Source: Candidatus Bathyarchaeota archaeon
GTDB taxonomy: Archaea; Thermoproteota; Bathyarchaeia; Bathyarchaeales; Bathycorpusculaceae
Assembly (NCBI GenBank): GCA_003601875.1
Contig: PIYF01000001.1
Location: forward strand, 1-18,650
Length of the DNA stretch: 18,650 nucleotides
Reading direction: 5' to 3'
Both the position numbers and the translations under genes were made by a program. Below, in pieces: positions 1 to 18,462 of the stretch. Each line of letters opens with the position of its first letter. The first letter of the stretch is position 1. The notes under the pieces were generated by a model, which saw only the letters and a program-made list of their open reading frames with translations, made no database searches and had not been told where the DNA came from.

Positions 1-22
1 CAGTTTTCTTAAGAAATTTTTA

Positions 23-99
23 TGGTAGCCCGGGAGATATTCGAACTCTCTTTTGAAAACAAGACTTAAACGTGTGTTTGAACTTATCTCCCGGCGCCA
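23..99. repeat. 77-nt imperfect inverted repeat with tRNA-like ends
   Basis: The arms at 23-39 and 85-99 can form about 15 base pairs with two single-base bulges (A27, C29). The core GGGAGATA/TATCTCCC is perfect. Both strands end in CCA. The minus strand ends like an initiator-type tRNA (GGGCTACCA, with a GTTCGAA T-loop-like motif before it). However, I cannot draw a canonical cloverleaf on either strand: there is no D-loop GG, the T-stem closing pair fails, and there is no 7-nt anticodon loop with a proper stem. The interior holds a second small hairpin at 66-81. It could be a tRNA pseudogene, a fragmented tRNA half, a small structured RNA, or a terminator/attachment-type palindrome. Which strand is used is unknown. 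Confidence 0.4.
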
Positions 100-116
100 A
101 TTTAAATTTGCAAAAG

Positions 117-138
117 GTTATATCTAGAAGGTTCTTAA
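117..138 (+). promoter_or_regulatory. Likely promoter of the carboxypeptidase gene
   Basis: A TATA-like TTATAT at 118-123 lies about 50 nt before the chosen ATG at 172, leaving room for a leader of roughly 25 nt. It is followed by GGTTCTTAA at 130-138. The same nonamer follows the TATA box of the next gene at 1866-1874. Confidence 0.4.
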
Positions 139-171
139 ATTGTAGCTTCTAAACTTCAAAAGGTGTTTGAG

Positions 172-1707
172 ATGGTTGAATCTTTAACTTCAAGTTATAA
201 GAGGCTGATGGATAAGGTTCACGACATAATTGTTCTTCAAAGCGCAACAGCGGTTGTTCATTGGGATATGGAGACTATGATGCCTCCTAAAGCTGTTCAG
301 CTTCGAAGTCAACAGTTGGCTATGCTTAGTAGGATAACCCACAAAATGGTTACGGATTCTGAAATTGGAAAGTTGATAGAGGCTATTATGAAGCATCCTG
401 ACTATGAAAAACTCACCGAAGTTCAGAAAAGAAATGTGTATTTAATTAAGAAGGAATATGACGAACAGACAAAGCTTCCTGAAAAACTTGTAGCTGAACT
501 GGCGAAACAACGTGCTATAACGACGAATGTTTGGAAAAGGGCTAAAGCAGCTAAAGACTATTCAATTTTTAAACCTGAACTTGAAAAACTTGTTGAACTT
601 TCAAAGGAGGCGGCTGAAATTTTAATGAAGGTTAAGGAAACAAAGACGCCTTATGACGCATTACTTGACATTTACGAACCTAAAATGACATCTGAAACGG
701 TTGCAAAAGTCTTTGAAGAATTAAGAGTTGGACTTGTTTCCCTTTTAAAGAAATGTGAAACCGCACCCAAACAACCAGACGTGTCAATTCTTAAAAGGAA
801 GGTTCCAATAGAAATGCAGAAAAAAATAGCTAAAGAAATTGCACGTTTCATAAAGTATGATATAGAATCTAAGGAAGCTGGAGGAAGAATAGATGAGACG
901 GAGCATCCCTTTACAACAGGCTACTATGATGATGTTAGAATAACAACACATTATTATGAAGACAACTTCACCTCGTCAATTTTCTCAGTGTTACATGAAG
1001 GTGGACATGCTATGTACGAACAAAACTTAAGAAGAGAATGGATATTTCAACCCGTTGGAACAGCTTGCTCAAGCGGTTTCCACGAGTCACAATCACGTTT
1101 CGTTGAAAACATAGTGGGGCGTTCTCGTGAATTTTGGGTTTACTTTCTACCTAAACTCAAGGAAATAACTGGAAACATTCTCGCTGATGTAGAATTAGAC
1201 AGATTTGTTCACGCCGTAAACCAGGTGAAACCTTCAAAAATAAGGATTGAAGCAGATGAAGTTACATATTGTCTGCACATAATAATCAGGTTTAACCTTG
1301 AAAGGAACCTGTTTGCAGATAAAATATCGGTGGCCGAACTTCCCCAAGTTTGGAATCAAAGCTATAATGAGTATCTCGGAGTAAAAATTGAGAATGATTC
1401 TGAGGGAGTAATGCAAGACACTCACTGGGCAAGTGGTTTATACGGATACTTCCCAACATATGCTTTAGGCAACATTTACAGTGGACAAATACTTGAAGCT
1501 ATGGAAAAAGATTTACCAGACTGGAAAAAACGCCTGGCAGCTGGAAACTTCCAAGACATTAAGCAGTGGTTAATTAAAAATGTTCATAGCTATGGAAACC
1601 TATACGACCCAGCTGATCTGATTAGAAAAATAACTGGAAAAGAACTGACAGTTAAGCCATACCTTGATTATCTAACTCAAAAATATTCAATGCTTTATGG
1701 CTTTTAA
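172..1707 (+). CDS. Thermostable metallocarboxypeptidase, M32 (Taq carboxypeptidase) family
   Basis: Zinc carboxypeptidase that removes C-terminal residues from peptides, presumably in the cytoplasm (no signal peptide is seen). The family signature is complete. Numbered from the GTG at 163, it has HPF at 248-250, DVRIT at 257-261, the zinc motif HEGGH at 278-282 and a HES-Q segment at 307-310 supplying the third ligand. ADE-TY and QDTHW follow near the C-terminus. The length of about 511 residues is normal for M32. I chose ATG 172 because AGGTG at 161-165 sits 6 nt before it. That same AGGTG overlaps the alternative GTG at 163, which would add three residues. It appears monocistronic, with its own promoter and a 193-nt gap after it. 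Family assignment is firm; physiological substrates are unknown. Confidence 0.93.
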   Translation: MVESLTSSYKRLMDKVHDIIVLQSATAVVHWDMETMMPPKAVQLRSQQLAMLSRITHKMVTDSEIGKLIEAIMKHPDYEKLTEVQKRNVYLIKKEYDEQTKLPEKLVAELAKQRAITTNVWKRAKAAKDYSIFKPELEKLVELSKEAAEILMKVKETKTPYDALLDIYEPKMTSETVAKVFEELRVGLVSLLKKCETAPKQPDVSILKRKVPIEMQKKIAKEIARFIKYDIESKEAGGRIDETEHPFTTGYYDDVRITTHYYEDNFTSSIFSVLHEGGHAMYEQNLRREWIFQPVGTACSSGFHESQSRFVENIVGRSREFWVYFLPKLKEITGNILADVELDRFVHAVNQVKPSKIRIEADEVTYCLHIIIRFNLERNLFADKISVAELPQVWNQSYNEYLGVKIENDSEGVMQDTHWASGLYGYFPTYALGNIYSGQILEAMEKDLPDWKKRLAAGNFQDIKQWLIKNVHSYGNLYDPADLIRKITGKELTVKPYLDYLTQKYSMLYGF

Positions 1708-1846
1708 TTTCCGACAAGAATAAACTTTAATTCAACTTTTCTTTTTCTAAAACGACAAAAACACATTATACTGTAGACCATTTCTCAAAGCACAAGATGG
1801 AAAATCTCTGTAATAATCGGCATTTTGGAATTTACTAGCATCCTTC

Positions 1847-1908
1847 TCCGACAATTTTATATATAGGTTCTTAACATTCTGTCTTGTTAGATGGTTTGAA
1901 ATGTCGGA
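1847..1908 (+). promoter_or_regulatory. Promoter of the HTH-Fae-Hps gene with flanking TCCGACA elements
   Basis: A clear TATA box (TTTATATA, 1856-1863) predicts initiation near 1886 and a short leader to ATG 1901. TCCGACAA occurs at 1847-1854, in the BRE position just upstream of the TATA box, and again at 1710-1717. Its inverse TGTCGGA occurs at 1902-1908 over the start codon. GGTTCTTAA follows the TATA box. The TATA box is well supported; an operator role for the repeats is inference. The rest of the gap 1708-1846 shows nothing else I recognise. Confidence 0.6.
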
Positions 1909-3340
1909 TAAAAATACTAAAAAACCTGAAACACGGGAAGAATTCTTGAGAATGTTGGTGAATGCTGCTAAGAAGGAGGTTGAAGCTCGGAGTATTTTGA
2001 AGGGTAAACGGGCAAAACCTACAATTTCTGGAACAGCAAAAATATTGAATGTTCATAGAGACACGCTTTATTCTTGGCTTAAAGAGTTTAATGTCGACTT
2101 TAAAGAAGTTGTGAATGGTTTAACCCAGTCTCTTTCTGTTGGAAAATACACGTATCTAATTGGGGAAGCTTTGGTTGGTGAAGGTAATGAGGTGGCTCAT
2201 GTTGATTTGTTAATAGGGGATAAGGATGGTCCTGTCGGTGAAGCTTTTGCAGCTGGTCTAGCCCATCTTTCAATGGGGCATACTCCCCTTTTAGCTGTTA
2301 TCAGACCTAACCTTCCTCCAAAACCTCACACCCTGCTTGTTCCTAAAGTGACGGTGAAAAATCTTGAGGATGCAAACAAGGTTTTCGGTCCAGCTCAAGC
2401 TGCTGTTGCAAAGGCTGTTGCAGATGCTGTGGAGGAGGAGATAATTCCAAAGGATAAGGTTGATGATTGGGTTATAATCTGTAGTGTTTTTGTTCATCCG
2501 CAAGCTAAGGATTATCGCAAAATATATCATTATAATTATAGTGCAACAAAACTTGCCTTAAAAAGAGCCTTAGCTAAGTATCCATCCTTAGAAAAGATTT
2601 TTTACGACAAAGATAGAGCAAAACATCCAATCATGGGATTTCGAGTGCCCCGCCTTTGGAGACCACCTTACTTGCAGATATCCCTTGATATACCAGACTT
2701 GGAAAGAACTAAGAAAATTATAGAGCAAATTCCAAAAAGTGACAGGATAATATTAGAGGTTGGAACTCCACTTATTAAGAGGTATGGAACAAAAGTGATA
2801 AATCAGCTGAGGGAAGTGGCTAAAGATGTTTTCTTCATTGCAGACTTAAAAACCTTGGATGTTGGAAAAGTTGAGGTTGACTTAGCCTATGAAGAAACAG
2901 CTGAGGCTGTTGTAGCAGCTGGTTTAGCTCCACCAGAAACTCTTAACGCGTTCATTTATGAAGCTAAAAGACTTGGAATATACGCTGCAGTGGACATGTT
3001 AAACGTTGAAAATCCCGTTAAAAAACTTAAAACTCTTAAGGAGTTTCCAGACATCGTTATTTTGCATAGGGGAATAGACCAGGAAACTGGAAGGACAATA
3101 GGGTTAGAGAACATTCAAAAGTTGAGGCAAGCGTTCAAAGATAAAAAATTCTTAATAGCAGTTGCAGGTGGAATTGTGCCTTTAACCGCTAAAGAAGCTC
3201 TAGAAAAAGGCGCTGACATAATTATTGTTGGAAGATATATTACGCAATCAAAGGATGTAGAGCGTGCTGTTAGAGAGTTCCTAGAGATTACCCCTACAAT
3301 GCGGGAAGACGTAGACTTGTTCAGAGTGCATGTTGAATAG
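1901..3340 (+). CDS. fae-hps: Bifunctional formaldehyde-activating enzyme / 3-hexulose-6-phosphate synthase with N-terminal helix-turn-helix
   Basis: Fae condenses formaldehyde with tetrahydromethanopterin. Hps interconverts ribulose-5-phosphate plus formaldehyde with hexulose-6-phosphate, which many archaea use in reverse to make pentose phosphates. Fae spans about residues 84-245 (IGEALVGEGNEVAH, with H100 matching the family's catalytic His). Hps spans about 258-470 (LEVGTPLIKRYG, ADLKTLDVG, a C-terminal VAGG and IIVGRYIT phosphate-binding region). The oddity is an 83-residue N-terminal extension before Fae. It carries a helix-turn-helix-like segment at about 41-62 (TISGTAKILNVHRDTLYSWL). 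ATG 1901 is fixed by the TATA box and a stop just upstream in the competing ATG frame. The gene stands alone with its own promoter. Fae-Hps assignment is firm; DNA binding by the extension is inference. Confidence 0.93.
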   Translation: MSDKNTKKPETREEFLRMLVNAAKKEVEARSILKGKRAKPTISGTAKILNVHRDTLYSWLKEFNVDFKEVVNGLTQSLSVGKYTYLIGEALVGEGNEVAHVDLLIGDKDGPVGEAFAAGLAHLSMGHTPLLAVIRPNLPPKPHTLLVPKVTVKNLEDANKVFGPAQAAVAKAVADAVEEEIIPKDKVDDWVIICSVFVHPQAKDYRKIYHYNYSATKLALKRALAKYPSLEKIFYDKDRAKHPIMGFRVPRLWRPPYLQISLDIPDLERTKKIIEQIPKSDRIILEVGTPLIKRYGTKVINQLREVAKDVFFIADLKTLDVGKVEVDLAYEETAEAVVAAGLAPPETLNAFIYEAKRLGIYAAVDMLNVENPVKKLKTLKEFPDIVILHRGIDQETGRTIGLENIQKLRQAFKDKKFLIAVAGGIVPLTAKEALEKGADIIIVGRYITQSKDVERAVREFLEITPTMREDVDLFRVHVE

Positions 3341-3419
3341 TTTCCTCTAATTTAAACATAAATCCTTAATAGATAGAAAATTCAACTGTTCACAAAACAA
3401 ATGCGAGGGTCTCTATTCG

Positions 3420-3863
3420 ATGGCAAAATTTAAAGTGATAATCTCTGATCCAGAAACTGGTAAATCAAAAATGGTTGAACTTGAAGAGACAAGAGCTGTC
3501 CCTTTGATTGGAAGGAAGATAGGTGAAATAATAGACGGTTCAGTTGTCGGATTATCAGCACATAAACTGCAGATAACAGGAGGATCCGATAAAGATGGTT
3601 TTCCAATGCGAGCTAACGTGCATGGAGGTGTCCGGAGAAAAGTAATTTTAAGTGGTGGTGTAGGGTTTAACCCTAAAAGGAAAGGTGAAAGAAGACGGAA
3701 AACTGTTCGGGGAAACGTGATAACAGATGAGATAACACAGATAAACATGAAAATCGTTGAAAAACCTAAACAAACTAAGAAAGTTGACGAAACTAAAAAA
3801 GAAGTGAAAAGTAAGGAAAGACAAGAAAAGAAAACTGAAAAACAACAGAATAATAACATTTAA
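3420..3863 (+). CDS. rps6e: 30S ribosomal protein S6e
   Basis: Archaeal/eukaryotic-type small-subunit ribosomal protein eS6. The conserved core is present: an N-terminal beta region, GGSDKDGFPMR near residues 54-64, HGGVRRK at about 68-74, then GERRRKTVRGN. The core ends near residue 113. After it comes a Lys/Glu/Gln-rich low-complexity tail of about 35 residues, longer than in most archaeal S6e proteins. It opens the informational cluster that continues with aIF2-gamma, a pairing common in archaea. The start is ATG 3420, with only a weak purine-rich stretch before it. A long reading frame on the opposite strand is a composition shadow. Confidence 0.95.
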   Translation: MAKFKVIISDPETGKSKMVELEETRAVPLIGRKIGEIIDGSVVGLSAHKLQITGGSDKDGFPMRANVHGGVRRKVILSGGVGFNPKRKGERRRKTVRGNVITDEITQINMKIVEKPKQTKKVDETKKEVKSKERQEKKTEKQQNNNI

Positions 3864-3866
3864 TGC

Positions 3867-3900
3867 TCAACATTTATTAATCTGCAAATTTACATGTTGA
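3867..3900. repeat. 7-bp inverted repeat between S6e and aIF2-gamma
   Basis: TCAACAT at 3867-3873 pairs with ATGTTGA at 3894-3900 across a 20-nt AT-rich spacer that holds a TATA-like stretch (ATTTATTA, 3872-3879). It could be a weak operator or an RNA hairpin ahead of the aIF2-gamma start. The arms are short, so chance is possible. Confidence 0.25.
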
Positions 3901-3915
3901 ATAACTTTATAATTT

Positions 3916-5172
3916 ATGGTAAGAGAGATGAGTAGCGAAAAACCTTTACCTAAACAGCCTGAAATTAATATTGGTACAATAGGGCATGTTGATCATGGTA
4001 AAACAACCCTTGTTCAAGCTTTAACTGGTGTTTGGGCTGCAAGACATAGTGAAGAATTGAAAAGGGGCATAACAATAAAACTTGGTTATGCTGATATGCC
4101 CGTATATAAATGTCCAAAGTGTGAGTCTCCTAAAAATTATTCAACCCAACCTATCTGTCCACATTGTGGTTCAAAAACAGAATTTGTAAGGGCTGTAAGT
4201 TTTGTAGATGCTCCTGGACATGAAGCGTTAATGGCTACCATGCTTTCTGGAGCAGCCATAATGGATGGTGCAATCCTTGTAATTGCAGCTGATGAACCTT
4301 GTCCTCAACCTCAAACGAGAGAACATTTGGCAGCTGCTGAAATTATAGGGATAAAAAACATTGTTGTTGTACAGAATAAAATAGACATTGTAAGCAAGGA
4401 AAGAGCTAAGGAGAGCTATGAGGAAATTAAAAATTTTGTTAAAGGAACGATTGCTGAGAACGCTCCAATAATACCTGTTTCAGCGCAGAGAGGTGTAAAC
4501 ATGGATGTTCTTATTCAAGCTATGGAAGAATACATTCCAACTCCGAAAAGAGATGAAGCTAAGTCTCCTTTAATGTATGTTGTAAGATCGTTTGATATTA
4601 ATAAGCCGGGGACATCTATTAAAGATTTGAAAGGCGGAGTGATTGGAGGAACAATAGTTCACGGAAAGTTTACTGTTGGAGATGAAATAGAAATTAGTCC
4701 AGGAGTTAGAGTTCAGAAAAGTGGAAAATCCATTTATAATCCCTTATTTACTGAAATAGTAAGTTTACATGCCGGAGGTAAAAGTGTTAAAGAAGCCCAT
4801 TGCGGTGGATTAGTTGGCGTTGGCACCCTTCTTGACCCATCCTTCTCAAAAGCTGACGGTTTAACTGGAAATGTTGCTGGAAAAACAGGAGAACTTCCTC
4901 CAGTCTTATCAGAACTTTCATTTGAAGCTCACATTTTTGAACGTGCAGTTGGAACTAAAGAACTTTTGGAAGTTAAAAAAATAAATGTTGGTGAAACTTT
5001 ACTTTTACATGTAGGTTCATCCATAACCCTTGGAAAGGTTAATTCTATAAAGAAAGAAGTTGTAACAGCTGTTTTAAGTCGTCCAGTATGCGTTCATGAA
5101 GATGCAAGAGTTGCAATCAGCAGAAAAATAGCTGGAAGATGGAGACTTATAGGATATGGAAAAATATCCTAA
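3916..5172 (+). CDS. eif2g: Translation initiation factor aIF2 subunit gamma (GTPase)
   Basis: GTPase core of the heterotrimeric factor that delivers initiator Met-tRNA to the small ribosomal subunit. Visible motifs are the P-loop GHVDHGKT at 23-30, a switch region with GITI, and the four-cysteine zinc ribbon specific to the gamma subunit (C66, C69, C81, C84). DAPGH at 98-102, NKID at 154-157 and a SAQ guanine-binding segment follow. EF-Tu-like domains 2 and 3 follow to the C-terminus. The length of 418 residues is normal. ATG 3928 (four residues shorter) is an equally possible start, preceded by purine-rich GTAAGAGAG. The PIN nuclease gene starts 32 nt downstream, so cotranscription is likely. 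Confidence 0.96.
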   Translation: MVREMSSEKPLPKQPEINIGTIGHVDHGKTTLVQALTGVWAARHSEELKRGITIKLGYADMPVYKCPKCESPKNYSTQPICPHCGSKTEFVRAVSFVDAPGHEALMATMLSGAAIMDGAILVIAADEPCPQPQTREHLAAAEIIGIKNIVVVQNKIDIVSKERAKESYEEIKNFVKGTIAENAPIIPVSAQRGVNMDVLIQAMEEYIPTPKRDEAKSPLMYVVRSFDINKPGTSIKDLKGGVIGGTIVHGKFTVGDEIEISPGVRVQKSGKSIYNPLFTEIVSLHAGGKSVKEAHCGGLVGVGTLLDPSFSKADGLTGNVAGKTGELPPVLSELSFEAHIFERAVGTKELLEVKKINVGETLLLHVGSSITLGKVNSIKKEVVTAVLSRPVCVHEDARVAISRKIAGRWRLIGYGKIS

Positions 5173-5204
5173 CAGAATTTCCAACTTTAAACGAGAATGA
5201 TTAA

Positions 5205-5618
5205 ATGTCAAAGGTTAAGGAGAAACCTTTAAGGATAATTGTCGACTCTAACGCTTTGTTTGTTCCGTTACAGTTTAAAATTGACATTTTTGAGGAATTA
5301 AAAAGATTGTTAAACAGGAATTTTGAGCTTGTTCTTATTTCCCCTGTTCGAGAGGAACTTGAAAAGTTAGCTGAGAGAGGTTCTCCTAAAACGCGTAAGA
5401 CTGCTTCCTATGTTTTAAAATTGGCTGAAGAAAAATGCATCTATTATCATATGGGTCAGAGTTTCAAGGTGGCTGATGAAGCAATAATTCAGTTAGCTAA
5501 AAAATGGGGTTGCTTGGTTTTTACTAATGACAGAGAACTTAAAAGGAGGTTAAGAAATATAAATGTGCCAGTTATCTATGTGAGACAAAAATCTCGACTG
5601 GAAATAGACGGAGTGTAA
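5205..5618 (+). CDS. PIN-domain nuclease of the Fcf1/VapC9-like archaeal family
   Basis: Small single-domain PIN protein of 137 residues. The acidic metal-binding positions are in place: D14 in IIVDSN, E50/E51 in the second conserved helix, D91 in VADEAI and D109 in FTNDREL. Archaeal PIN proteins at this position, between aIF2-gamma and Rpo7, are commonly linked to the Fcf1/Utp23-type rRNA-processing group rather than to toxin-antitoxin pairs. No antitoxin gene is adjacent here, which agrees with that view. The Rpo7 start codon lies 6 nt after its stop, so it is part of the operon. The exact RNA target is not visible from sequence. Confidence 0.85.
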   Translation: MSKVKEKPLRIIVDSNALFVPLQFKIDIFEELKRLLNRNFELVLISPVREELEKLAERGSPKTRKTASYVLKLAEEKCIYYHMGQSFKVADEAIIQLAKKWGCLVFTNDRELKRRLRNINVPVIYVRQKSRLEIDGV

Positions 5619-5624
5619 ATTTCC

Positions 5625-6233
5625 TTGTTTAAACTGATAGAATTAGAAGATACAATTCGTATACCTCCTGAAACCTTCGGAGAGCCGTTGGAGCATGTTG
5701 GTTATGAACAGGTTAGGGCAAAATATGAAGGAATTGTTGATGAAGAGTTAGGTTATGTTATTGCTGTAGTGAAAGTTCAAGTTAGTTCCGTTGGAAAAAT
5801 AATTCCAGGTGACGGAGCAACATATCATAAAGTTAAATTTTCCCTCTTAACATTTTACCCGAAAATCCAGGAAATAGTTGAAGGAGAAGTTGTTGAAATA
5901 GCTGATTTCGGAGCTTTCGTAAGGATAGGCCCAATAGACGCGTTGCTCCACGTTTCACAGTTAATGGATGATTTTATATCCTATGATGAAAAGCAAGGAG
6001 TGCTTATGGGAAAGGAAACAAAAAGAAAACTTGCAAGTGGCGATAAAGTCCGCGTCAGAATAACAGCGGTCTCTCTTGGGAGAGCTGGAACTTCTGGAAA
6101 AATAGGTGTAACAGCAAGGCAGCCTTTCCTCGGGAAAATTGAATGGATTAAGAAGGAAGTTGAAAAAGTGAAAGGTTCAACTGCTGAAAAGACTGGGGAA
6201 GAAGCGAAACAAAAAGCTGAAAAAGGAGGGTAA
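5625..6233 (+). CDS. rpoE1: DNA-directed RNA polymerase subunit Rpo7 (E')
   Basis: Stalk subunit of archaeal RNA polymerase, homologous to eukaryotic Rpb7. It normally pairs with Rpo4 (RpoF), which is not in this window. The N-terminal RNP-like domain begins with the family pattern (FKLIELEDTIRIPPETFG). The S1-type RNA-binding domain covers about residues 80-165 (GEVVEIADFGAFVRIGPIDALLH region). A Lys/Glu-rich tail of about 20 residues extends the C-terminus. The start is TTG 5625: family alignment begins exactly there, and no in-frame ATG is nearby upstream. It is followed after 8 nt by Spt4. Confidence 0.95.
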   Translation: MFKLIELEDTIRIPPETFGEPLEHVGYEQVRAKYEGIVDEELGYVIAVVKVQVSSVGKIIPGDGATYHKVKFSLLTFYPKIQEIVEGEVVEIADFGAFVRIGPIDALLHVSQLMDDFISYDEKQGVLMGKETKRKLASGDKVRVRITAVSLGRAGTSGKIGVTARQPFLGKIEWIKKEVEKVKGSTAEKTGEEAKQKAEKGG

Positions 6234-6241
6234 ATAAACTT

Positions 6242-6430
6242 TTGAGTGAGAAAGCATGTACAAAATGTCATTTAATAGTTAATAAGGGAAATATTTGTCC
6301 AAGATGTAAAACACCTACACTAAGCGACGATTTCAGCGGAATGGTTATAATATTCGACCCGGAAGACTCCGCCATAGCAAAAGCCATGAATATTAAAGAG
6401 AAAGGACGATACGCATTAAAGGTTAGGTAA
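6242..6430 (+). CDS. spt4: Transcription elongation factor Spt4 / RNA polymerase subunit E''
   Basis: Small zinc protein of 62 residues that binds Spt5 (NusG-type) and aids RNA polymerase processivity. The zinc ribbon is visible as CTKC at 6-9 and CPRC at 19-22. It is followed by the family-typical WSG-like segment (here FSGMVIIFDPEDSAIAK) and a GRYALKVR ending. The start is TTG 6242. GGAGGG at 6225-6230 lies 11 nt before it, within the end of rpo7. The next gene begins 2 nt after its stop. The Rpo7-Spt4 pairing is standard in archaea. Confidence 0.94.
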   Translation: MSEKACTKCHLIVNKGNICPRCKTPTLSDDFSGMVIIFDPEDSAIAKAMNIKEKGRYALKVR

Positions 6431-6432
6431 AC

Positions 6433-6963
6433 TTGCCTTATGTTTATTATTTAACATCCGAACTTCGAAGGGAATTTAAAAAACCTATAGGCAAGCTTAT
6501 TCGCGGTTCATTCGAAGAAACCATGAGGAAATTGAAGGAAATTGTAAACTTGGAGAAACCTACAAAGATAATTGCGGTAGGTGATAGAGTTTCAATGAAC
6601 CTTTGGAAAAATGGTTTTTCCCCTCAACTTTCAATCGTTGACAACAAGGTTATGAGAAAAAACATAAATATTACAGGAATAATGGCTGACAAAACAGTTT
6701 ATGTGAAAAATCCTCCGGGAACATTAACAGAAGAAGCCATGTTAAAAGTGAGGGAGGCCCTTGGAAAAAATTTTCGAATAAAAATGGTTGTTGAAGGAGA
6801 AGAAGATTTATTCACTTTACCAGCGGTTCTCTACGCGCCTGAAAGCTCATTTGTCATTTATGGACAGCCTTACGAAGGGATTGTAATTGTGAAAGTTACA
6901 AAGGAAAAGAAGGATGAAGCAGCAAATGTTCTAAAAAGAATGAGAAAAGTTTCGAAAAGCTAA
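6433..6963 (+). CDS. GTP-dependent dephospho-CoA kinase (DUF359)
   Basis: Archaeal enzyme of the DUF359 family that catalyses the last step of coenzyme A synthesis with GTP, as shown for a Thermococcus member. The family motifs are present: VGDRVS near residues 49-54, SIVDNK near 67-72, NPPGTLTEEA near 92-101. EGEEDLFTLP and the strongly conserved SFVIYGQPYEGIV follow near the C-terminus. The length of 176 residues is normal. The start is TTG 6433, 2 nt after the Spt4 stop. It is the third consecutive TTG start, and the N-terminus matches the family only from here. Location between Spt4 and S24e is a recurrent archaeal arrangement. Confidence 0.92.
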   Translation: MPYVYYLTSELRREFKKPIGKLIRGSFEETMRKLKEIVNLEKPTKIIAVGDRVSMNLWKNGFSPQLSIVDNKVMRKNINITGIMADKTVYVKNPPGTLTEEAMLKVREALGKNFRIKMVVEGEEDLFTLPAVLYAPESSFVIYGQPYEGIVIVKVTKEKKDEAANVLKRMRKVSKS

Positions 6964-7004
6964 ATAAAGAGGAATGTTATCAAGTTCAACATCAGCGAGC
7001 GAAA

Positions 7005-7379
7005 ATGAAAATCAAAATAATATCCCAGAAGGATAATCCTCTACTTAAAAGAAAAGAAGTGATTTTCGAAGTTAACCATACAGACACTGGTGCAACACCT
7101 CAAAGATTAGAAGTTAGAAAAGCCGTTGCTGAAGCTTTAAAAACAGACACAGATTTAGTTTATATTAGAAAAGTGGAAACAAAAACAGGAACCCGTATTG
7201 CTGTTGGAACAGCAAACATTTACTATTCACCTAAGCAAGCAAAACTTGTTGAACCAGAATATATAATTAAGAGGAATATGCCTCCTAAAAAACCTGAAGA
7301 AGAGAAGAAAGTGGAAGAAAAACCTGAGATGAAAGCTGAGGAAAAAACTGAAGAAAAGGAGGATGAGAAGAATGAGTGA
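7005..7379 (+). CDS. rps24e: 30S ribosomal protein S24e
   Basis: Archaeal/eukaryotic ribosomal protein eS24. The conserved core covers about residues 1-90: the DNPLLKRKEV segment, the ATPQRLEVRKAVA helix, and the GTANIYYSP region. It is followed by a Glu/Lys-rich tail of about 30 residues. The stop codon lies 8 nt inside the next gene, S27ae, so translation of the two is probably coupled. The gap of 41 nt before it holds no recognisable site, and ATG 7005 lacks a strong Shine-Dalgarno. Confidence 0.94.
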   Translation: MKIKIISQKDNPLLKRKEVIFEVNHTDTGATPQRLEVRKAVAEALKTDTDLVYIRKVETKTGTRIAVGTANIYYSPKQAKLVEPEYIIKRNMPPKKPEEEKKVEEKPEMKAEEKTEEKEDEKNE

Positions 7380-7602
7380 AAAACCAGCTGAGAAAGAGAA
7401 GAAAGGGAAAGAAAAACGTGAAAAGAAAAAGAAGGAAGAAAAAGGAGTTTACACTCTATATAAAATAGAAGGCGATAAACTAGTGCGGCTTCGTCCAACT
7501 TGTGAACGTTGTGGACCAGGATACTTCATGGCAGATCATGGTGATAGATATACTTGTGGACATTGTGGTTTCACAAGGTATAAGACTGCAACTGCGAAAT
7601 AA
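7372..7602 (+). CDS. rps27ae: 30S ribosomal protein S27ae
   Basis: Zinc-ribbon ribosomal protein eS31. The functional part is the C-terminal 50 residues: the YTLYKIEGDKL start, then two CxxC pairs (CERC and CGHC) around GPGYFMADHGDRYT, with TRYKT at the end. I chose ATG 7372, because GGAGG at 7358-7362 lies 9 nt before it. The upstream ATG 7363 overlaps that site. The N-terminal 25 residues are an unusual Lys/Glu-rich extension that continues the purine-rich tract begun in the tail of S24e. It overlaps S24e by 8 nt. Confidence 0.94.
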   Translation: MSEKPAEKEKKGKEKREKKKKEEKGVYTLYKIEGDKLVRLRPTCERCGPGYFMADHGDRYTCGHCGFTRYKTATAK

Positions 7603-7607
7603 ACAGC

Positions 7608-7614
7608 TTTAAAT
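7608..7614 (+). promoter_or_regulatory. TATA box before the SecB-like orphan gene
   Basis: TTTAAAT lies 23-29 nt ahead of ATG 7637. That spacing suits a leaderless transcript and supports ATG 7637 over the upstream TTG at 7622. Confidence 0.45.
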
Positions 7615-7636
7615 CAGACGGTTGTTCATAGTTTTG

Positions 7637-8068
7637 ATGGTTAAAATGATTAGAGTAAACGTTTCCATAACTAACGTTTCTGCTGAACGTTTTTGGGATG
7701 TCCGTAAACCCATGCCTCCAATTCAAATAAACACAAACCTTAATCTTGTAAGCATAGAAAAAAAGACGGAAGATTTTCTTGAAGTTCCCTTCGTCTTAAC
7801 TGTAAACTATAATCCATCCGTTGCTCAAATAAGTCTCAAAGGAAAAGCATACGTCGCTGGAGATAAAAAGGAAATAAATAAAATTTACAGTGAATATAAA
7901 GAAAAGAAGCCTCCGCCACCAGTTATTGTCCAGTCCATTTCTAACGTTGTATTCGTAGAGTCCGTGTTAATATCGAAAACAATAAACATACCTCCACCTA
8001 TCCCGCTTCCAAAGATTCCACAGGTTAAACAGTCTGAGAAAGGCTCTAAGATGGATTACACAGCGTGA
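7637..8068 (+). CDS. Uncharacterised protein, possibly SecB-like fold
   Basis: I do not recognise a named family with certainty. The protein is 143 residues, soluble and beta-rich. It has a hydrophobic strand pair in the middle (FVLTVNYNPS, then ISLKGKAYV), a helix-like linker rich in Lys/Glu, then PPPPVIVQ and a Pro-rich end (NIPPPIPLPKIP). The order is beta strands, helix, helix, then a Pro-rich loop. It resembles the SecB chaperone layout, which also ends in a conserved proline-rich segment. That likeness is by eye only. The start is ATG 7637 by TATA spacing; TTG 7622 and ATG 7646 are alternatives. It lies after S27ae and converges on S19 with 19 nt between the stops. Confidence 0.7.
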   Translation: MVKMIRVNVSITNVSAERFWDVRKPMPPIQINTNLNLVSIEKKTEDFLEVPFVLTVNYNPSVAQISLKGKAYVAGDKKEINKIYSEYKEKKPPPPVIVQSISNVVFVESVLISKTINIPPPIPLPKIPQVKQSEKGSKMDYTA

Positions 8069-8087
8069 AAAAGGAAGAGCTTTCAAT

Positions 8088-8501
8088 CTATTTTAATGGA
8101 ACATACATGGAAGAACGTGAAGCACCGATACCTGGGGTTCCATGTTTAACTGGTTTGTTGGTTATTGCAAATTCACCTAGATAATGTCCTATCATTTCAG
8201 GTTTTATCTCAACTGGAACGAATTCCTTTCCGTTATGAACAAGAATTGTTACACCAACCATTTCAGGTAGAATTATCATATCTCTTACGTGAGTTTTTAC
8301 TACAACGTTATTTCCCTTTCTAATTTCCTCCTTTGCTTTCCTTATTTTTTCAAGTAATATCCTCTGCTGCACTGTTAAACCTCGATGAAGGCTTCTTCTC
8401 TGTCTTGCAGGAAGAATATTTATGAATTCATCCATAGACATAGTTTGTAATTGTTCAAGCTTGTAGCCTCTATACGTGAATTCTTTAGGCATTTCTATCA
8501 T
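8088..8501 (-). CDS. rps19: 30S ribosomal protein S19 (uS19)
   Basis: Small-subunit head protein. Its conserved C-terminal half is complete ([15 protein letters not shown], the [11 protein letters not shown] strand, MIGHYLGEF, then [13 protein letters not shown]). The N-terminal extension ([14 protein letters not shown]) is archaeal type. The length of 137 residues is normal. The start may be ATG 8501 or ATG 8492; the latter has GAGATGAT just upstream. It is the last gene of the L3-L4-L23-L2-S19 operon. In most archaea L22 and S3 follow directly, but here the strand switches. Confidence 0.95.
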
Positions 8502-8540
8502 CTCATTATTTTTCTAAAGTCAGCTATAAACCTTCTGAAA

Positions 8541-9278
8541 TTATGCTTTCTTCCTCTTCTTCTTTTTTCCAGCGCCCTTCGCCGCAATTAATCCAACTTT
8601 TTGACCTGGTGGTGCACCATGTGAAACTGTTGTAACCTTTCGAGCGCTTCTTTTGCTGCTTCCATAAGGGTGAACAGCTGCAATCATTGCTCTTCCACGG
8701 GTTCTCGGATATTTATGTCCTTTAGCTTTCATTAAATGATATTTAGCTCCTGCTTTTAAGAATGGCTTTTCAGTTCTTCCAGCCCCTGAAACAACACCTA
8801 TCGTAGCTCTGCACTTGTCATTAATGTAACGGGTTTTTCCAGATGGAAGCTTTATTATTGTTCCTTGCGCTGTATGGGCGACAACTATCGCGTAAGTTCC
8901 AGAAGACTTTGCAATTTTTCCTCCATCTCCTGGATGAAGTTCTATGTTGCAAACCATGGTTCCTTCAGGGATTTTACCGATTGGCAAAATGTTTCCAACT
9001 TCAATGGAAGCTTTCTCTCCCATTTGAATTTTTTGTCCTACGTAAACTCCTTCTGGCGCAATAGTATAACATGTTTGTCCATTTTCAAACCTTATTAAAG
9101 CTAGAGGTGTCCCTCTTCCAGGGTCGTGGATGAACTCTTCAATCACGCCGGAAATCACTTTTTTAAGGTCTTCTGTTGTCATCAATGGGTAACGGGCTGG
9201 TGCAACTCTCTTATGAGTTGATGCTTTAAAAACTGATCCGCCACGCCCACGTCTTTGAACACGGATTCTCTTCCCCAT
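8541..9278 (-). CDS. rpl2: 50S ribosomal protein L2 (uL2)
   Basis: Core large-subunit protein near the peptidyl-transferase centre. It is recognisable throughout: GKRIRVQRRGRGGSVF at the start, DPGRGTPLA near residues 52-60, GDGGKIAKSSGTYA near 117-130, and APPGQKVG near 222-229. The length of 245 residues is archaeal. The conserved loop that usually reads MN-VDHP-GGG reads MIAAVHPYGSS (residues 198-208). The key His (H203) is kept, but the preceding Asp is Val and two glycines are Ser. GGAGGT at 9285-9290, overlapping the L23 stop, lies 6 nt before ATG 9278. Confidence 0.95.
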   Translation of the reverse strand: MGKRIRVQRRGRGGSVFKASTHKRVAPARYPLMTTEDLKKVISGVIEEFIHDPGRGTPLALIRFENGQTCYTIAPEGVYVGQKIQMGEKASIEVGNILPIGKIPEGTMVCNIELHPGDGGKIAKSSGTYAIVVAHTAQGTIIKLPSGKTRYINDKCRATIGVVSGAGRTEKPFLKAGAKYHLMKAKGHKYPRTRGRAMIAAVHPYGSSKRSARKVTTVSHGAPPGQKVGLIAAKGAGKKKKRKKA

Positions 9279-9289
9279 TTATAAACCTC

Positions 9290-9550
9290 CTATAATATTC
9301 CAAGTTTAATTGCTACATCCACCGCCTTGTAATCTGGATGAAGCTTTACAAACGCTTTTTTCTGTCCTTTCGGAGTTATAAGAACGTTAACCTTTTCCAC
9401 TTTCACATCATAAAGGGTTTCAACAGCCCTTCTCACATCATGCTTTGTTGCTTTAAGATTCACAATAAAAACCAGTTTATTTTCCCTCTCAACCATAAGG
9501 CTTGCTGACTCTGTCATTACAGGATATAATATTACATCGTATGGATCCAT
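9290..9550 (-). CDS. rpl23: 50S ribosomal protein L23 (uL23)
   Basis: Large-subunit protein at the nascent-chain exit tunnel. The short archaeal form is 86 residues. The N-terminal YPVMTESASLMVERENKL segment and the ATKHDVRRAVE helix are diagnostic, followed by the VEKVNVL strand and the KKAFVKL strand. Its ATG shares one base with the L4 stop codon (TAATG arrangement), which indicates translational coupling. L2 follows after 11 nt. Confidence 0.95.
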   Translation of the reverse strand: MDPYDVILYPVMTESASLMVERENKLVFIVNLKATKHDVRRAVETLYDVKVEKVNVLITPKGQKKAFVKLHPDYKAVDVAIKLGIL

Positions 9551-10341
9551 TAGGCTTCCTCTCCTCCACCGTAAATTTCATTTAGTTTTTGGATGGCGCT
9601 GTTAGTCCATATTGTTAATCTTCCAGGATGAGTTCCTGGGGCTAAAATTTCAGCATTTAAATTGTTAACCGTGACGACGTCTACACCTGGTATGTTTTCA
9701 GCAGCCTTTTTTATTCCTCCATTTTCAGCAACCACTATAAGGGGGCCTACAGCTTGTTTCAGTTTTCTCCCCCTAAGTTTACCTCTTCCAGCTCTAATTT
9801 TTCTACTTTCTCTTACACGATAAATGTCGGATAAAACTCCTAAATGAATAAGAGCCTCCTCTACATCCTTTGTTTTAGTAAGCTTTTCAAGGTCATCTGT
9901 AACTATTAATGGAATCTGTAGGGCGTCTTCAACAGCGTGTCCCCTTGAAGCCACAATTTTTTTTGATGCAGTTGCAGCTATAGCTGAAAACAAAGCTAAA
10001 CGTTTCTCTTTTTTCGGAATCCTTTTCACAATTTTCTTTTCTGAAACTGGTGGATGGGCTGCTCTTCCACCAACAGTTCCAGGAGCAAAAGCACCCCTTT
10101 GCCCAGGGCCTTTCAATCTCGGTATTCTTGCAATTCCTTGTCCCACACCTCTTGATTCCGCTGTAGTTCTTTTTCCAGCCATGGGGTTTCTACCTTGAGG
10201 TTGAAATCTTCCAGATTGAATTGCTAAAACAGCCCTTTTTATAACATCAGGTCTTAACGGTGTTTGGAAAACTGGTGGAAGTTTTATCTTTCCAACTGAT
10301 TCTCCTTGAAGGTTAAAGACTTTCACGGTTCTTCTAACCAT
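9550..10341 (-). CDS. rpl4: 50S ribosomal protein L4 (uL4)
   Basis: Large-subunit protein lining the exit tunnel; the archaeal form is 263 residues. Diagnostic parts are LPPVFQTPLRPDVIKRAV near residues 21-38, the basic loop with GVGQGIARIPR near 65-75, and GGRAAHPP at 91-98. A C-terminal domain with the NAEILAPGTHPGRLTIWT pattern follows. AGGTGA spanning the L3 stop codon sits just ahead of ATG 10341, so initiation depends on the end of L3. Confidence 0.96.
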   Translation of the reverse strand: MVRRTVKVFNLQGESVGKIKLPPVFQTPLRPDVIKRAVLAIQSGRFQPQGRNPMAGKRTTAESRGVGQGIARIPRLKGPGQRGAFAPGTVGGRAAHPPVSEKKIVKRIPKKEKRLALFSAIAATASKKIVASRGHAVEDALQIPLIVTDDLEKLTKTKDVEEALIHLGVLSDIYRVRESRKIRAGRGKLRGRKLKQAVGPLIVVAENGGIKKAAENIPGVDVVTVNNLNAEILAPGTHPGRLTIWTNSAIQKLNEIYGGGEEA

Positions 10342-10351
10342 TATTTTTCAC

Positions 10352-11365
10352 CTATTTTCCCTGCGGCGATTCTAGGGAGACATATGTAATCTGCGGCGGT
10401 TCCTCTGGAACTTCCTTTGGAGGACGGGCAGGATAACGTATTTTCACCGGCCGTTTCTCCGGACCTGGAACACTCCCATCGAGTAAAATGTATGGGCCAC
10501 GGATTAATCCGTATCTTATGAAGCCTCCTTTCGGTGTTATTTCCTTTCCATCAGTTCCTATTTTTAAAATTCTTTTATTATATTCCGTTCTTTGATGGAA
10601 CCCCATCTGTCCAGCTCTTGGAATACTGTATAAAACTCTTGGAGGCTTCCACGGTCCAAGCGTTGCTATTCCCCTCTTAGTCTTTCTTGCTTTATGCTGA
10701 AGTATTCTCACTCCCCAACGTTTCACAGGTCCTTGAAAACCTTTTCCTATAGATACTGCTGCAACATCAACATATTGTCCTTCTCTGAAAACATCAGCTG
10801 CAGTTATATTTTTTCCAAGCAAACTTTTAGCATATTCAAACTGTTCTTTAATTGTTCCTCCACCTATTTCTATCTCCATCATGTCAGGTTTTTTCTTTGG
10901 AACGCTTGCTTTTCTAGGCTGTGTAATCGCTATGACACGGATTTTAGCAATTTTATCCAAATTATCTTCAATTTTCTTGAGGTTTTCCTCGGTGTTAAAC
11001 TTTTCTGGTATTGTGAAGACGCGTTCAAGGTCTTCAGGCGGTTTTTCCATCCATGTTTCAGTGAATGTTTCAAGTCCGTAAGGAGTTTTCTTGTATGCCC
11101 TTATTGCACATATAAGCATTGGCTGTGCCTCTATAACTGTTGCTGGTCGAATAACTTCCTTTCCATAGTTTGGTGACTGTTTTCTATCTTCAATTGCGAA
11201 AACATGAGTCATTCCAGCTTTATAGCCCATAAAGCCTAAAAGCCTTGGTTTTTCAGCTTCTATTTGAGGCCAATAACGGATTCTTGCAATTAAACTTTTA
11301 GCACGTTTCCTAGGTGAATATGCAAGTGAACCCCGTTTGGGTGCATGTTTTTTCCTATGTCCCAT
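10352..11365 (-). CDS. rpl3: 50S ribosomal protein L3 (uL3)
   Basis: Early-assembly large-subunit protein and first gene of the minus-strand operon. The archaeal/eukaryotic form is 337 residues, beginning GHRKKHAPKRGSLAY. GYKAGMTHV is at 47-55, GKGFQGPVKRWG lies in the middle, and the GQMGFHQRTEYNKR segment precedes the peptidyl-transferase finger. A TATA box at 11407-11413 precedes ATG 11365, with a leader of about 20 nt. Two ATAAC...GTTAT palindromes lie over and upstream of the promoter. Confidence 0.96.
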   Translation of the reverse strand: MGHRKKHAPKRGSLAYSPRKRAKSLIARIRYWPQIEAEKPRLLGFMGYKAGMTHVFAIEDRKQSPNYGKEVIRPATVIEAQPMLICAIRAYKKTPYGLETFTETWMEKPPEDLERVFTIPEKFNTEENLKKIEDNLDKIAKIRVIAITQPRKASVPKKKPDMMEIEIGGGTIKEQFEYAKSLLGKNITAADVFREGQYVDVAAVSIGKGFQGPVKRWGVRILQHKARKTKRGIATLGPWKPPRVLYSIPRAGQMGFHQRTEYNKRILKIGTDGKEITPKGGFIRYGLIRGPYILLDGSVPGPEKRPVKIRYPARPPKEVPEEPPQITYVSLESPQGK

Positions 11366-11395
11366 AGTTCTTCCGCTTCGCGTCTTTTAGGAATA

Positions 11396-11462
11396 ATAAC
11401 AACAAGTTATAAACATTACTAATAATCGTTCTATGTGAATGCATATAACAACATTTTGTTAT
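11396..11462. repeat. Pair of ATAAC...GTTAT palindromes upstream of the L3 operon
   Basis: ATAAC-aacaa-GTTAT spans 11396-11410 and overlaps the L3 TATA box. ATAACAA-catt-TTGTTAT spans 11445-11462, about 50 bp further upstream. Both share the start ATAACAACA. They may be operator sites for the ribosomal operon, or the second may form a hairpin at the end of the upstream minus-strand transcript. Apart from these palindromes and the TATA box, the gap 11366-11527 shows nothing recognisable. Confidence 0.4.
11407..11413 (-). promoter_or_regulatory. TATA box of the L3 ribosomal operon
   Basis: Read on the minus strand, TTTATAA is centred 45 nt before the L3 ATG. It predicts a start near 11385 and a leader of about 20 nt. 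Confidence 0.55.
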
Positions 11463-11527
11463 CTACAAGTTTTTGGAGATTAAAATTTTATACTTCTAAA
11501 ACCACCTCATACATAACATTCATACGC

Positions 11528-12472
11528 CTATTTAAATATAAATAAACTTTTTATTTTCTCTAGAATTTTTTCAGCGGCTTGTTCTGGTGCGTATTTAACC
11601 GTGTTTATTGTTATTTCAGGGTTTGTTGGAGGCTCATAGGGCTGTCCTATCCCTGGAACTGTTGGGGCTTTTCCTTCAAATGCCCGCTTATAAATTTGTT
11701 TTGGCGCTGATCGTGTGTTTTTACGTTGTGTTTCCCGTTTTATACAGATTTCCAATGGACATTTTAAGTAAACTTCCATAAATTTTGGAATTTGTTTGCG
11801 GGCGTTTTCCCTATAACGCCTTAGGTTACCAGTTGCGTCAATTATAACGTTTACACCGTTACTGGTTAAAAGTTTGGCTATGTAAACAAGGGTTGCATAA
11901 ACTATGTCTCTTTCATTCAATGAATAGGTTGGTTTAGGTGTTAAAACTTTTCTTAAGTTATCAGAAGCTAAGAGTTGGACGTGAATGCCTTCTTCCTCTA
12001 AAAGTTTTAGCAAAGCTTCTGAAACAACGCTTTTACCACTTCCTGGAAGCCCTGTTATCCAAACGCACCAGCCGCCTTCTGTAAATGTCATTTCACACAT
12101 ACCTTCCCTTAAGAACTGATAACTTTTTATTTTTATTAAATGGCTTTTACATTCAGAATCTGATGAACCGAACCCTTTAATTGGTTTTCCCTTTTTCATT
12201 ATTTTCTTTGCTGTTTTACATTCCTCAGTTTTCCCGGCTTTTTTATAGAAAACTTTCACGATTTTTACGTTTTCATTGGCAAGTAAATAATCTATATGCC
12301 AAAATTTTCTTTTTTCTTTTCTAAAATGTCTTTTTATCCTTTTTTCTAGGCTGTTTTGAGCTGACCCGACATAAGCGTATAATCCTTTTTCAAAAAATAT
12401 TGGTCCTAAAGCTCCAACATTTACCTTAATGTTTTTAGAGACTTTTATTATTAGAACGTAAATTCCTTTCAC
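11528..12472 (-). CDS. DUF123 (GIY-YIG-like) domain fused to adenylylsulfate kinase-like domain
   Basis: Two-domain protein of 314 residues. Residues 1-118 match DUF123, a GIY-YIG-related family (GIYVL at 3-7, LYAYVGSA at 31-38, RIKRHF at 45-50, WHIDYLL at 58-64, GFGSSDSEC at 100-108). Residues 134-310 match APS kinases: P-loop GLPGSGKS at 141-148, SDNLRK at 170-175, EVYLKCPLEICI, IYKRAFEGK, PYEPPTNPEI. The usual FISP motif of APS kinase is absent. In its place is DATGNLRRYRENAR, so the substrate is uncertain. The start is GTG 12472, 8 nt after the small ORF. M125 (12100) and M128 (12091) have GGGAAGGT just before them, so a free kinase could also be made by internal initiation. No other sulfate-assimilation gene is nearby. 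Confidence 0.85.
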   Translation of the reverse strand: MKGIYVLIIKVSKNIKVNVGALGPIFFEKGLYAYVGSAQNSLEKRIKRHFRKEKRKFWHIDYLLANENVKIVKVFYKKAGKTEECKTAKKIMKKGKPIKGFGSSDSECKSHLIKIKSYQFLREGMCEMTFTEGGWCVWITGLPGSGKSVVSEALLKLLEEEGIHVQLLASDNLRKVLTPKPTYSLNERDIVYATLVYIAKLLTSNGVNVIIDATGNLRRYRENARKQIPKFMEVYLKCPLEICIKRETQRKNTRSAPKQIYKRAFEGKAPTVPGIGQPYEPPTNPEITINTVKYAPEQAAEKILEKIKSLFIFK

Positions 12473-12480
12473 TTTTATCG

Positions 12481-12588
12481 TTAAGCATTATCTTTTTTAT
12501 ACCATTTCAGTATTTCTTTAACTGCTTTGACAGAGTAACCTTGATTTAGAAGTTGCTGTTTTAAATTGTCAATGGTGTTTACATTCAA
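12481..12588 (-). CDS. Small ORF, 35 residues, upstream of the DUF123/kinase gene
   Basis: This is a reading frame starting at TTG 12588 and stopping with TAA at 12481-12483. The Shine-Dalgarno AGGTG (12596-12600) is 7 nt before the TTG, and a TATA box lies at 12627-12635. The predicted peptide is helical and amphipathic, with the pattern LKQQLLNQGYSVKAVKEILK followed by WYKKDNA. An -LL-QGYS-KAV-EILKWY- pattern is what I would expect of a real short archaeal protein family, but I cannot name it. It ends 8 nt before the GTG of the fused kinase, so the two share a transcript. It may be a small protein, or a leader peptide that couples translation of the downstream gene. Confidence 0.6.
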   Translation of the reverse strand: MNVNTIDNLKQQLLNQGYSVKAVKEILKWYKKDNA

Positions 12589-12626
12589 ATTAGAACACCT
12601 TTTCTGTTAATTTTAGATTTGGATTT

Positions 12627-12635
12627 TTTATATAG
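12627..12635 (-). promoter_or_regulatory. TATA box for the small ORF and DUF123/kinase operon
   Basis: On the minus strand CTATATAAA predicts initiation near 12605, just ahead of the AGGTG at 12596-12600. It lies in the 88-nt gap after the phosphotransferase stop. Confidence 0.55.
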
Positions 12636-12676
12636 ATTTTAATTCCAAAATGGTAATATGTCAATTTTGAGACCTA

Positions 12677-13768: not shown

Positions 13769-13841
13769 TTTTAAACCTCAAAAGAATTATCATGGTTAAG
13801 GTTAAAATGTATTGCGTAACAACAGGCTTAAGTGGTTTAGA

Positions 13842-14057
13842 ATGGATAAAATTGAATCCTTCGCCATTTTCCTAATAAGTTTAGGCTTAGCTTTAATTGC
13901 TCATCATTGCGTTTTCTTTGGAAGAATAGCTGACTTAAAAGACATTATGCATCATGAATTCTTTGAGGCAATACTGCTTACAGCTGGCATAACAATCTTA
14001 TTCAGCATACATTATGAGAAGAGAAAAAGATGTGGGAACAATGAACATTCTGATTAA
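13842..14057 (+). CDS. Small two-helix membrane protein
   Basis: Unrecognised protein of 71 residues. Two hydrophobic segments are visible, one at about residues 6-25 (FAIFLISLGLALIAHHCVFF) and one at about 41-57 (EAILLTAGITILFSI). A charged linker (GRIADLKDIMHHEF) lies between them and a Lys/Arg-rich tail follows. I prefer ATG 13842; TTG 13812 would add ten residues. Its end overlaps the start of the deaminase gene by 17 nt, so translation is probably coupled. Function unknown. Confidence 0.6.
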   Translation: MDKIESFAIFLISLGLALIAHHCVFFGRIADLKDIMHHEFFEAILLTAGITILFSIHYEKRKRCGNNEHSD

Positions 14058-15396: not shown

Positions 15397-15420
15397 TTTT
15401 GATGTGAATGAAATGAGAGC

Positions 15421-16686: not shown

Positions 16687-16721
16687 ATTTCAAATGATAA
16701 GAACGTTGCTAATAAAGATAA

Positions 16722-16764
16722 ACTTTAAAAGGATAAACAATAAACATTGGCTTACGTGTGGTGA
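16722..16764 (+). promoter_or_regulatory. TATA box and Shine-Dalgarno for the following membrane-protein gene
   Basis: ACTTTAAAA at 16722-16730 predicts a start near 16750. GGTGA at 16760-16764 lies 6 nt before ATG 16771, so this gene probably has its own promoter. Confidence 0.45.
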
Positions 16765-16770
16765 AATAAA

Positions 16771-17109: not shown

Positions 17110-17115
17110 TTTGGA

Positions 17116-17490: not shown

Positions 17491-17514
17491 AATTTTCCAC
17501 CTTTTAACAAGAGG

Positions 17515-17534
17515 CTATATTGGAACTAATATAG
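17515..17534. repeat. 20-bp palindrome over the likely promoter of the pilin-like gene
   Basis: CTATATT at 17515-17521 and AATATAG at 17528-17534 form perfect 7-bp arms around GGAACT. On the minus strand the distal arm sits where a TATA box for the gene starting at 17490 would be. It may be an operator, or simply a palindromic TATA region. Confidence 0.35.
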
Positions 17535-17569
17535 CGTTTATGAATCTAAAATTATGAGAGTTAATACAT

Positions 17570-17944: not shown

Positions 17945-17957
17945 AAATTATCATCTC

Positions 17958-18401: not shown

Positions 18402-18452
18402 ATTGGAAGTTTAAAAAAAGTTTTGCGTCTACTTATCAATAGGTGTCCACAA

Positions 18453-18462
18453 TTTATATTAA
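18453..18462. promoter_or_regulatory. AT-rich divergent promoter region
   Basis: TTTATATTAA can serve the plus-strand gene at 18498 (predicted start near 18482). Read on the other strand, it can serve the minus-strand gene at 18401. The 96-nt gap between the two divergent genes holds no other clear TATA box. Confidence 0.4.

Follow-up and report, generated by a model that had tools for sequence, protein, structure and literature searches.

A helix-turn-helix head on the archaeal Fae-Hps enzyme and phased sites in its promoter: a candidate self-regulating enzyme

We analyzed an 18,650-nucleotide stretch of DNA from Candidatus Bathyarchaeota archaeon (GenBank assembly GCA_003601875.1, contig PIYF01000001.1, positions 1 to 18,650 of the forward strand; hereafter, the window), focusing on a gene that encodes the bifunctional enzyme Fae-Hps with a helix-turn-helix (HTH) head in front of it. 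Comparison with related archaeal genomes makes us fairly confident that HTH-Fae-Hps is a self-regulating bifunctional enzyme, most likely an autogenous repressor of its own gene that works in the manner of PutA. On the sequence comparisons, the enzyme very probably controls its own gene, and shutting that gene down is the most likely direction of control. The basis of this reading is the domain order of the protein, its conservation, the conservation and spacing of a set of promoter sites, the co-occurrence of these sites with the HTH and the loss of both together.

The HTH-Fae-Hps protein

The reading frame is intact and holds about 85 residues ahead of Fae, in agreement with the first-pass annotation of this DNA, which had drawn attention to the extension. 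Pfam models match Fae (PF08714) at residues 87-245 (E 6e-72, 241 bits, cut-off 27) and OMPdecase/HUMPS at residues 256-460 (E 3e-32, 113 bits, cut-off 27), whereas the NCBIfam model NF009833 for the bifunctional enzyme is matched over nearly its whole profile at residues 85-478 (585.3 bits, equivalog cut-off 274). The histidine H100, which we take to be the catalytic histidine of Fae and which had been described as intact, is aligned with the histidine of the solved Fae structure 1y5y; neither it nor D315, K317 and D320 of Hps vary across 35 aligned rows, including that of the window. We assume that the Fae histidine and the D-x-K-x-x-D residues of Hps are the key residues of the two enzymes. 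An internal start at Fae had been envisaged for the homologues; instead, they share MSxxxxKKPET-like N-termini, and the start at 1901 is correct by this criterion.

Fae is a pentamer whose substrates are formaldehyde and tetrahydromethanopterin, and Hps interconverts ribulose-5-phosphate plus formaldehyde with hexulose-6-phosphate, in archaea probably in the direction of ribulose-5-phosphate. Each of the two Fae structure entries that we found contains 10 chains. A published study (PMC5241800) describes Hps as reversible, states that archaea may form ribulose-5-phosphate by the reverse reaction, with the freed formaldehyde taken up by Fae, and reports a demonstrated activity of the M. hungatei Fae-HPS. 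The partner enzyme, hexuloisomerase, scores above the cut-off in 16 of 31 relatives. Weaker matches, present in 29 of the 31, are unspecific, as all 14 control genomes match too; the genome of the window has a partial match of 118.7 bits, below the cut-off of 160.

The HTH-like segment, first placed at about residues 41-62, was recovered by structure prediction. The AlphaFold model of the N-terminal piece has helices at 12-34, 42-49, 53-62 and 67-77, the last three of which form a three-helix unit behind the long first helix. Its confidence (block pLDDT) is mostly about 80-84, with 64 for the block 31-40, and the linker is of low confidence. A weak model of the whole protein (mean pLDDT 68) contains similar helices. 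Against Pfam HTH models, residues 39-65 give weak matches (best E 0.00026), all under their curated cut-offs: the gathering thresholds of HTH_29, HTH_28 and HTH_23 are not reached, the best score being 21.5 against 28.1 bits for HTH_29. A fold search with the HTH domain alone found no clear DNA-binding family. We class the extension as a predicted HTH-like domain without a named Pfam family.

The motif HRDTLY.W of the putative recognition helix is identical in 21 of 21 aligned rows, and each of the 120 homologues among the matches listed (5766 found) spans 100% of the query. In these 120 proteins the mean frequency of the top residue is 0.90 in the HTH core (residues 37-66), 0.92 in Fae, 0.89 in Hps and 0.53 in the linker (67-86). 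Codon differences and linker lengths were analyzed in 101 loci, five of the 106 HTH loci considered below being left out because the pattern was unmatched. The HTH core differs by 0.23, 0.10 and 0.54 per codon at positions 1, 2 and 3, respectively; therefore, the HTH is translated and under protein-level selection, and is not a chance reading. Between the HTH core and Fae, the linker spans 18-26 amino acids (median 22).

Promoter sites and their specificity

The hexamer CCGACA is located 1-4 bp from the box TTWWATA in 103 of 106 non-redundant HTH-Fae-Hps loci, and in all 106 if one mismatch in CCGACA is allowed. The exact pattern is absent from all 47 Fae-Hps genes without an intact HTH of this type (153 genes compared), namely unfused (0/12), ribbon-helix-helix (RHH) type (0/13), outgroup (0/17), other-HTH (0/1) and HTH-lost or degenerate genes (0/4). 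For this comparison duplicates were removed by the first 150 amino acids of the core; the six DapA-Fae fusions were dropped, as were four loci with a cut or masked N-terminus and an RHH locus whose flank was too short. An inverted half-site, TGTCGG, follows the proximal site at 50-55 bp in 95 of the 106 HTH loci, 85 of them at 52-54 bp.

The sites stand out from their surroundings. Among 88 upstream flanks, which were selected for exact CCGACA and are 100% conserved at those six columns by construction, most neighboring positions show little base preference (top base 0.3-0.5), and clustering at 70% identity divides the flanks into 75 groups; therefore, the conserved sites are a footprint and not a product of recent shared ancestry. 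Similarly, the second codon, for serine, is TCG in 87 of 92 HTH genes, against 11.9% among the remaining serine codons there, and this excess indicates selection on the DNA. The counts of this codon and of the extra site copies refer to a set of 95 loci, among them a degenerate paralogue and two or more with a misplaced start.

Further exact CCGACA copies occur between -160 and -62 in 69 of the 95 loci, while base shuffles give 2.65. Their distances to the proximal site are mostly 31-32, 42, 53, 63-64, 73-75, 84-85 and 105-106 bp, for which a period scan peaks at 10.5 bp. With 40 representatives (<90% protein identity) R is 0.79, a value matched by 0 of 20000 uniform placements, at a best period of 10.5 bp; with 21 representatives (<86% identity) R is 0.72, matched by 1 of 20000, at 10.6 bp. 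The 10.5-bp phasing implies that the sites tend toward one face of the helix, as would be expected if a single multi-headed particle held several of them.

By scanning 30 genomes of the order we found the CCGACA-TATA pattern at the fae-hps promoter in 29. The search for CCGACAN{1,4}TTWWATA gave 42 rows, corresponding to 40 distinct places (two sites were matched twice), of which 29 are at fae-hps promoters and 11 elsewhere, compared with 21 for the reversed control; inspection of all 11 places away from fae-hps in the 30 genomes revealed no recurring gene. In the window's own genome (66% complete) the pattern occurs once, at fae-hps. The first-pass annotation had suggested that the protein may tune its own expression or that of C1/pentose genes. 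The former part is favored by the site set, which co-occurs with the HTH and lies inside the region 1708-1910 singled out there as a possible target; the latter found no support, as no other target recurs in the 30 genomes.

The remaining genome, G101, has a single mismatch at its own fae-hps promoter although its HTH is intact, and two exact matches elsewhere. At about position 1117 of its locus L306 (G101:C3:483116), a CCGACA-TATA pattern with downstream CCGACA and ATGTCGG precedes a 346-amino-acid, secreted-looking open reading frame (ORF); this site is possibly a second target within G101.

Two broader explanations were rejected. Pairs of CCGACA and TGTCGG with 36-66 bp between them, counted on one strand of the 30 genomes, number 95 including the own sites, against 92 in the control; with spaced pairs at the control rate and no recurring second target, a general regulon beyond fae-hps was discarded. 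An operon was discarded as well, since the gene downstream of fae-hps varies, S6e being next in 13 of 67 loci as judged by eye.

Table 1. Coordinates of the HTH-Fae-Hps gene, its domains and its candidate promoter sites in the window
Feature	Position	Strand	Basis or remark
HTH-Fae-Hps gene, 479 amino acids	1901..3340	+	ATG start, no internal stop, Pfam and NCBIfam matches
Predicted N-terminal HTH domain, residues 1-67; putative recognition helix HRDTLYSWLK at 53-62	1901..2101	+	AlphaFold, alignment
Variable linker, residues 68-85	2102..2155	+	Conservation profile, 101 loci
Fae domain, residues 87-245, containing H100	2159..2635	+	Pfam, alignment
Hps domain and C-terminus, residues 256-479; D315, K317, D320 invariant	2666..3337	+	Pfam, alignment
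Distal exact CCGACA, just past the stop of the upstream gene	1711..1716	+	137 bp, or 13.05 turns of 10.5 bp, before the proximal site
Possible weak half-site ACGACA, one mismatch, may be chance	1752..1757	+	96 bp upstream of the proximal site
Proximal half-site TCCGACA, adjoining the TATA box (position of the B recognition element, BRE)	1847..1853	+	Site scan
TATA box TTTTATATATA	1855..1865	+	Promoter comparison; transcription start expected near 1886
Inverted half-site, TGTCGG on the + strand, overlapping the start codon (ATGTCGG = Met-Ser)	1902..1907	-	54 bp from the proximal CCGACA

Downstream of the gene, on the same strand (3420-6233), the window encodes ribosomal protein S6e, initiation factor 2 gamma, a PIN-like protein and an Rpb7-like subunit. 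A single ORF on the minus strand (11528-12472) encodes both a DUF123 and an adenylylsulphate-kinase-like domain.

Heads and operators across the archaea

A survey of archaeal Fae-Hps proteins, proposed together with the first-pass annotation, located the HTH in 47 of 398 genomes of the phylum, every one in the window's order. It is single-copy in each genome except G090, which has an extra degenerate copy. The 398 genomes gave 48 HTH matches, 47 in frames of 345-545 amino acids and one in an 89-amino-acid frame cut by a contig end. In 44 whole genomes all 24 strong matches of the HTH profile are at Fae-Hps, and two more have E values of 0.005-0.01. Contigs named Ca. Bathyarchaeum and Ca. Bathycorpusculum encode the HTH-type protein, and no such extension of Fae-Hps was seen in the fetched contigs of Asgard archaea, Altiarchaeota and Ca. 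Methylarchaceae. Fae itself is matched in 168 of 256 genomes of the class, in other families of which some Fae-Hps proteins have no head and others have a different one.

Stand-alone HTH proteins were considered and rejected, as most of their 110 matches of 47-165 amino acids look like cut or frame-shifted pieces of Fae-Hps; the exceptions are P0197 and P0214. In P0197 (153 amino acids) the same HTH N-terminus precedes an unrelated stretch that matches no Pfam model, and the HTH may have been reused outside Fae-Hps. Second Fae copies at six loci (L146-L151) combine a dihydrodipicolinate synthase family domain with a C-terminal Fae (E 4e-83 and 1e-64, respectively, in L146).

One alternative head is RHH-like (RHH_1 E 0.0005-0.08, under the cut-off), and its nearest matches elsewhere are short open frames of 55-83 amino acids in 8 genomes of another family. 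RHH-Fae-Hps loci, among them L143:3910-5253, L121, L138 and L075, belong to families f25-f27 and have a TGTGACACA pair upstream. A third, HTH-like head was observed in a single genome, G210 (L139:3321-4703, minus strand; Sigma70_ECF 22.8 bits, cut-off 21.1), and no operator was identified at this locus. In a tree of 81 enzyme cores, among them 32 randomly drawn HTH loci and the window, a branch (100/99) sets off the HTH rows and four HTH-less or degenerate relatives, another (100/97) sets off the RHH rows, and the third head type groups with an unfused row (98/87). Because their folds differ, the heads were gained separately. At least two and probably three unrelated heads (HTH, RHH and another HTH-like one) were acquired by the same enzyme.

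The relatives without an intact head provide a natural test of the promoter sites. In two related genomes fae-hps has lost its HTH by deletion, and its TATA-side site is TCCGGCA; the gene start, readable in one of them, is ATGTCAGG. Two further genomes contain second fae-hps copies, one HTH-less and one with the helix QLDTLYAWF, neither of which has a site, and the first copies in these genomes retain both the HTH and the sites. The HTH-less genes have kept a TATA-like box while their CCGACA sites decay. All four HTH-lost or degenerate genes form one clade (100/91), and therefore reflect one or two events.

The RHH lineage carries an operator of its own. At least two TGTGWCAC-type sites are present in 11 of 13 loci and the CCGACA pattern in 0 of 13, whereas 0 of 106 HTH loci have two TGTGWCAC-type sites. 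By a looser 9-mer scan the operator TGTGACACA occurs in two copies in 12 of 14 loci and in a single copy in the other two; the copies are 51-52 bp apart in 10 loci and 62-63 bp apart in 2, corresponding to about 5 or 6 helical turns. The paired pattern is found in 12 of 16 RHH-type genomes and 0 of 6 others, and two of the 15 rows listed are away from fae-hps, in line with two control matches. In both the HTH and the RHH lineages the sites are about whole helical turns apart, with about 5 turns the commonest spacing.

Probable autogenous control, its alternatives and known systems

From these patterns we infer DNA binding by the head, repression rather than activation, bridging of sites by one oligomer and any change with substrate that may occur. 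Fae and Hps would form an oligomeric core with one HTH head per subunit on a flexible linker. The heads would bind the CCGACA half-sites of their own promoter at the TATA box, over the start codon about five turns further on, and upstream at whole turns. Several heads of one particle would grip a single face of the DNA, blocking access of TBP/TFB and the polymerase, and enzyme abundance would thereby repress new synthesis. Occupancy should block initiation because the TATA-side site is at the TFB contact and the second site is just past the expected transcription start; such a block would amount to negative autoregulation by enzyme abundance, and a set-point on the Fae-Hps level is plausible. 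More tentatively, and with some doubt on our part, it can be speculated that the oligomeric core is the scaffold that sets the operator geometry, and that the heads grip phased half-sites, sense abundance and release the DNA on formaldehyde or a sugar phosphate.

Binding of the protein to its own promoter could also serve activation, by aiding recruitment of TBP/TFB, perhaps in the substrate-bound state. The proximal site does adjoin the upstream side of the TATA box, and the upstream sites are phased; but the second conserved site, over the start codon and past the expected transcription start, better fits blocking, and the persistence of a TATA-like box in HTH-less genes with decaying sites also speaks against an activator, which we regard as unlikely. 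Slightly less probable still is a separate regulator of CCGACA, with the fused HTH having only a structural or protein-contact role. Short sites are common, which leaves some room for it; however, the tie between the exact site-TATA pattern and the HTH (103/106 against 0/47), the different operator at the same gene in the RHH-fused lineage and the lack of any other recurring target gene in 30 genomes are hard to reconcile with such a protein.

Two more explanations concern the transcript and the start of the protein. As the TGTCGG copy lies over the start codon and reads as Met-Ser, it might act in the mRNA, in translation control, or reflect a mere coding preference. We consider this very improbable, given the strong bias to TCG at that serine codon, an inverted partner upstream of the TATA box that should stay untranscribed, and an Rfam search of the window that gave no RNA family match. 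It is scarcely credible that the extension is a functionless relic or the product of a false start with true initiation at Fae. In 79 of 101 loci the linker does contain in-frame ATG, GTG or TTG codons (ATG in 41), and an extra short product is conceivable, but strong selection at the protein level acts on the HTH core, and homologues across the order keep the upstream start.

If HTH-Fae-Hps is indeed an autogenous repressor, it would represent an archaeal self-regulating enzyme of C1/pentose metabolism spread across an order of largely uncultured archaea, and its phased sites a simple test case for an oligomeric enzyme acting as a repressor. The surprising part is the separate gain of unrelated heads with phased operators. 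These gains, each with its own conserved operator where testable, constitute a natural replicate, which argues for a tightly held enzyme level, perhaps because formaldehyde, which Hps releases or consumes, is toxic.

To our knowledge, self-regulating enzymes with a fused DNA-binding head are few and mostly bacterial. DNA-binding heads on Fae-Hps are not mentioned in the titles and abstract openings of the literature searched, in which subscription journals are little covered. BirA and NadR are metabolic enzymes that carry an HTH head and control genes of their own pathway; they differ from Fae-Hps as enzymes, and for the window protein no recurring target beyond fae-hps was found. Its residues 85-478 make it the same enzyme as the Fae/Hps of NF009833, whereas the HTH and the putative self-operator distinguish it from the unfused Fae/Hps proteins compared, those of some families of its own class and of Asgard archaea, Altiarchaeota and Ca. 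Methylarchaceae. A study on PutA (PMC5293562) describes an N-terminal DNA-binding domain on an enzyme that acts on its own gene, with substrate switching. Trifunctional PutA (RHH-PRODH-P5CDH), an autogenous repressor of the put regulon, likewise combines an enzyme with a DNA-binding head and own-gene control, the latter being predicted here from sequence comparison. As the head of PutA is of the RHH type, the RHH-fused sister lineage is a closer analogue than the HTH protein of the window, which differs from PutA in its unrelated enzymes, its HTH head, its archaeal promoter and its repeated sites at whole helical turns. The enzyme is a member of the Fae/Hps family and, as the regulator that it appears to be, is PutA-like in its working but no relative of PutA.
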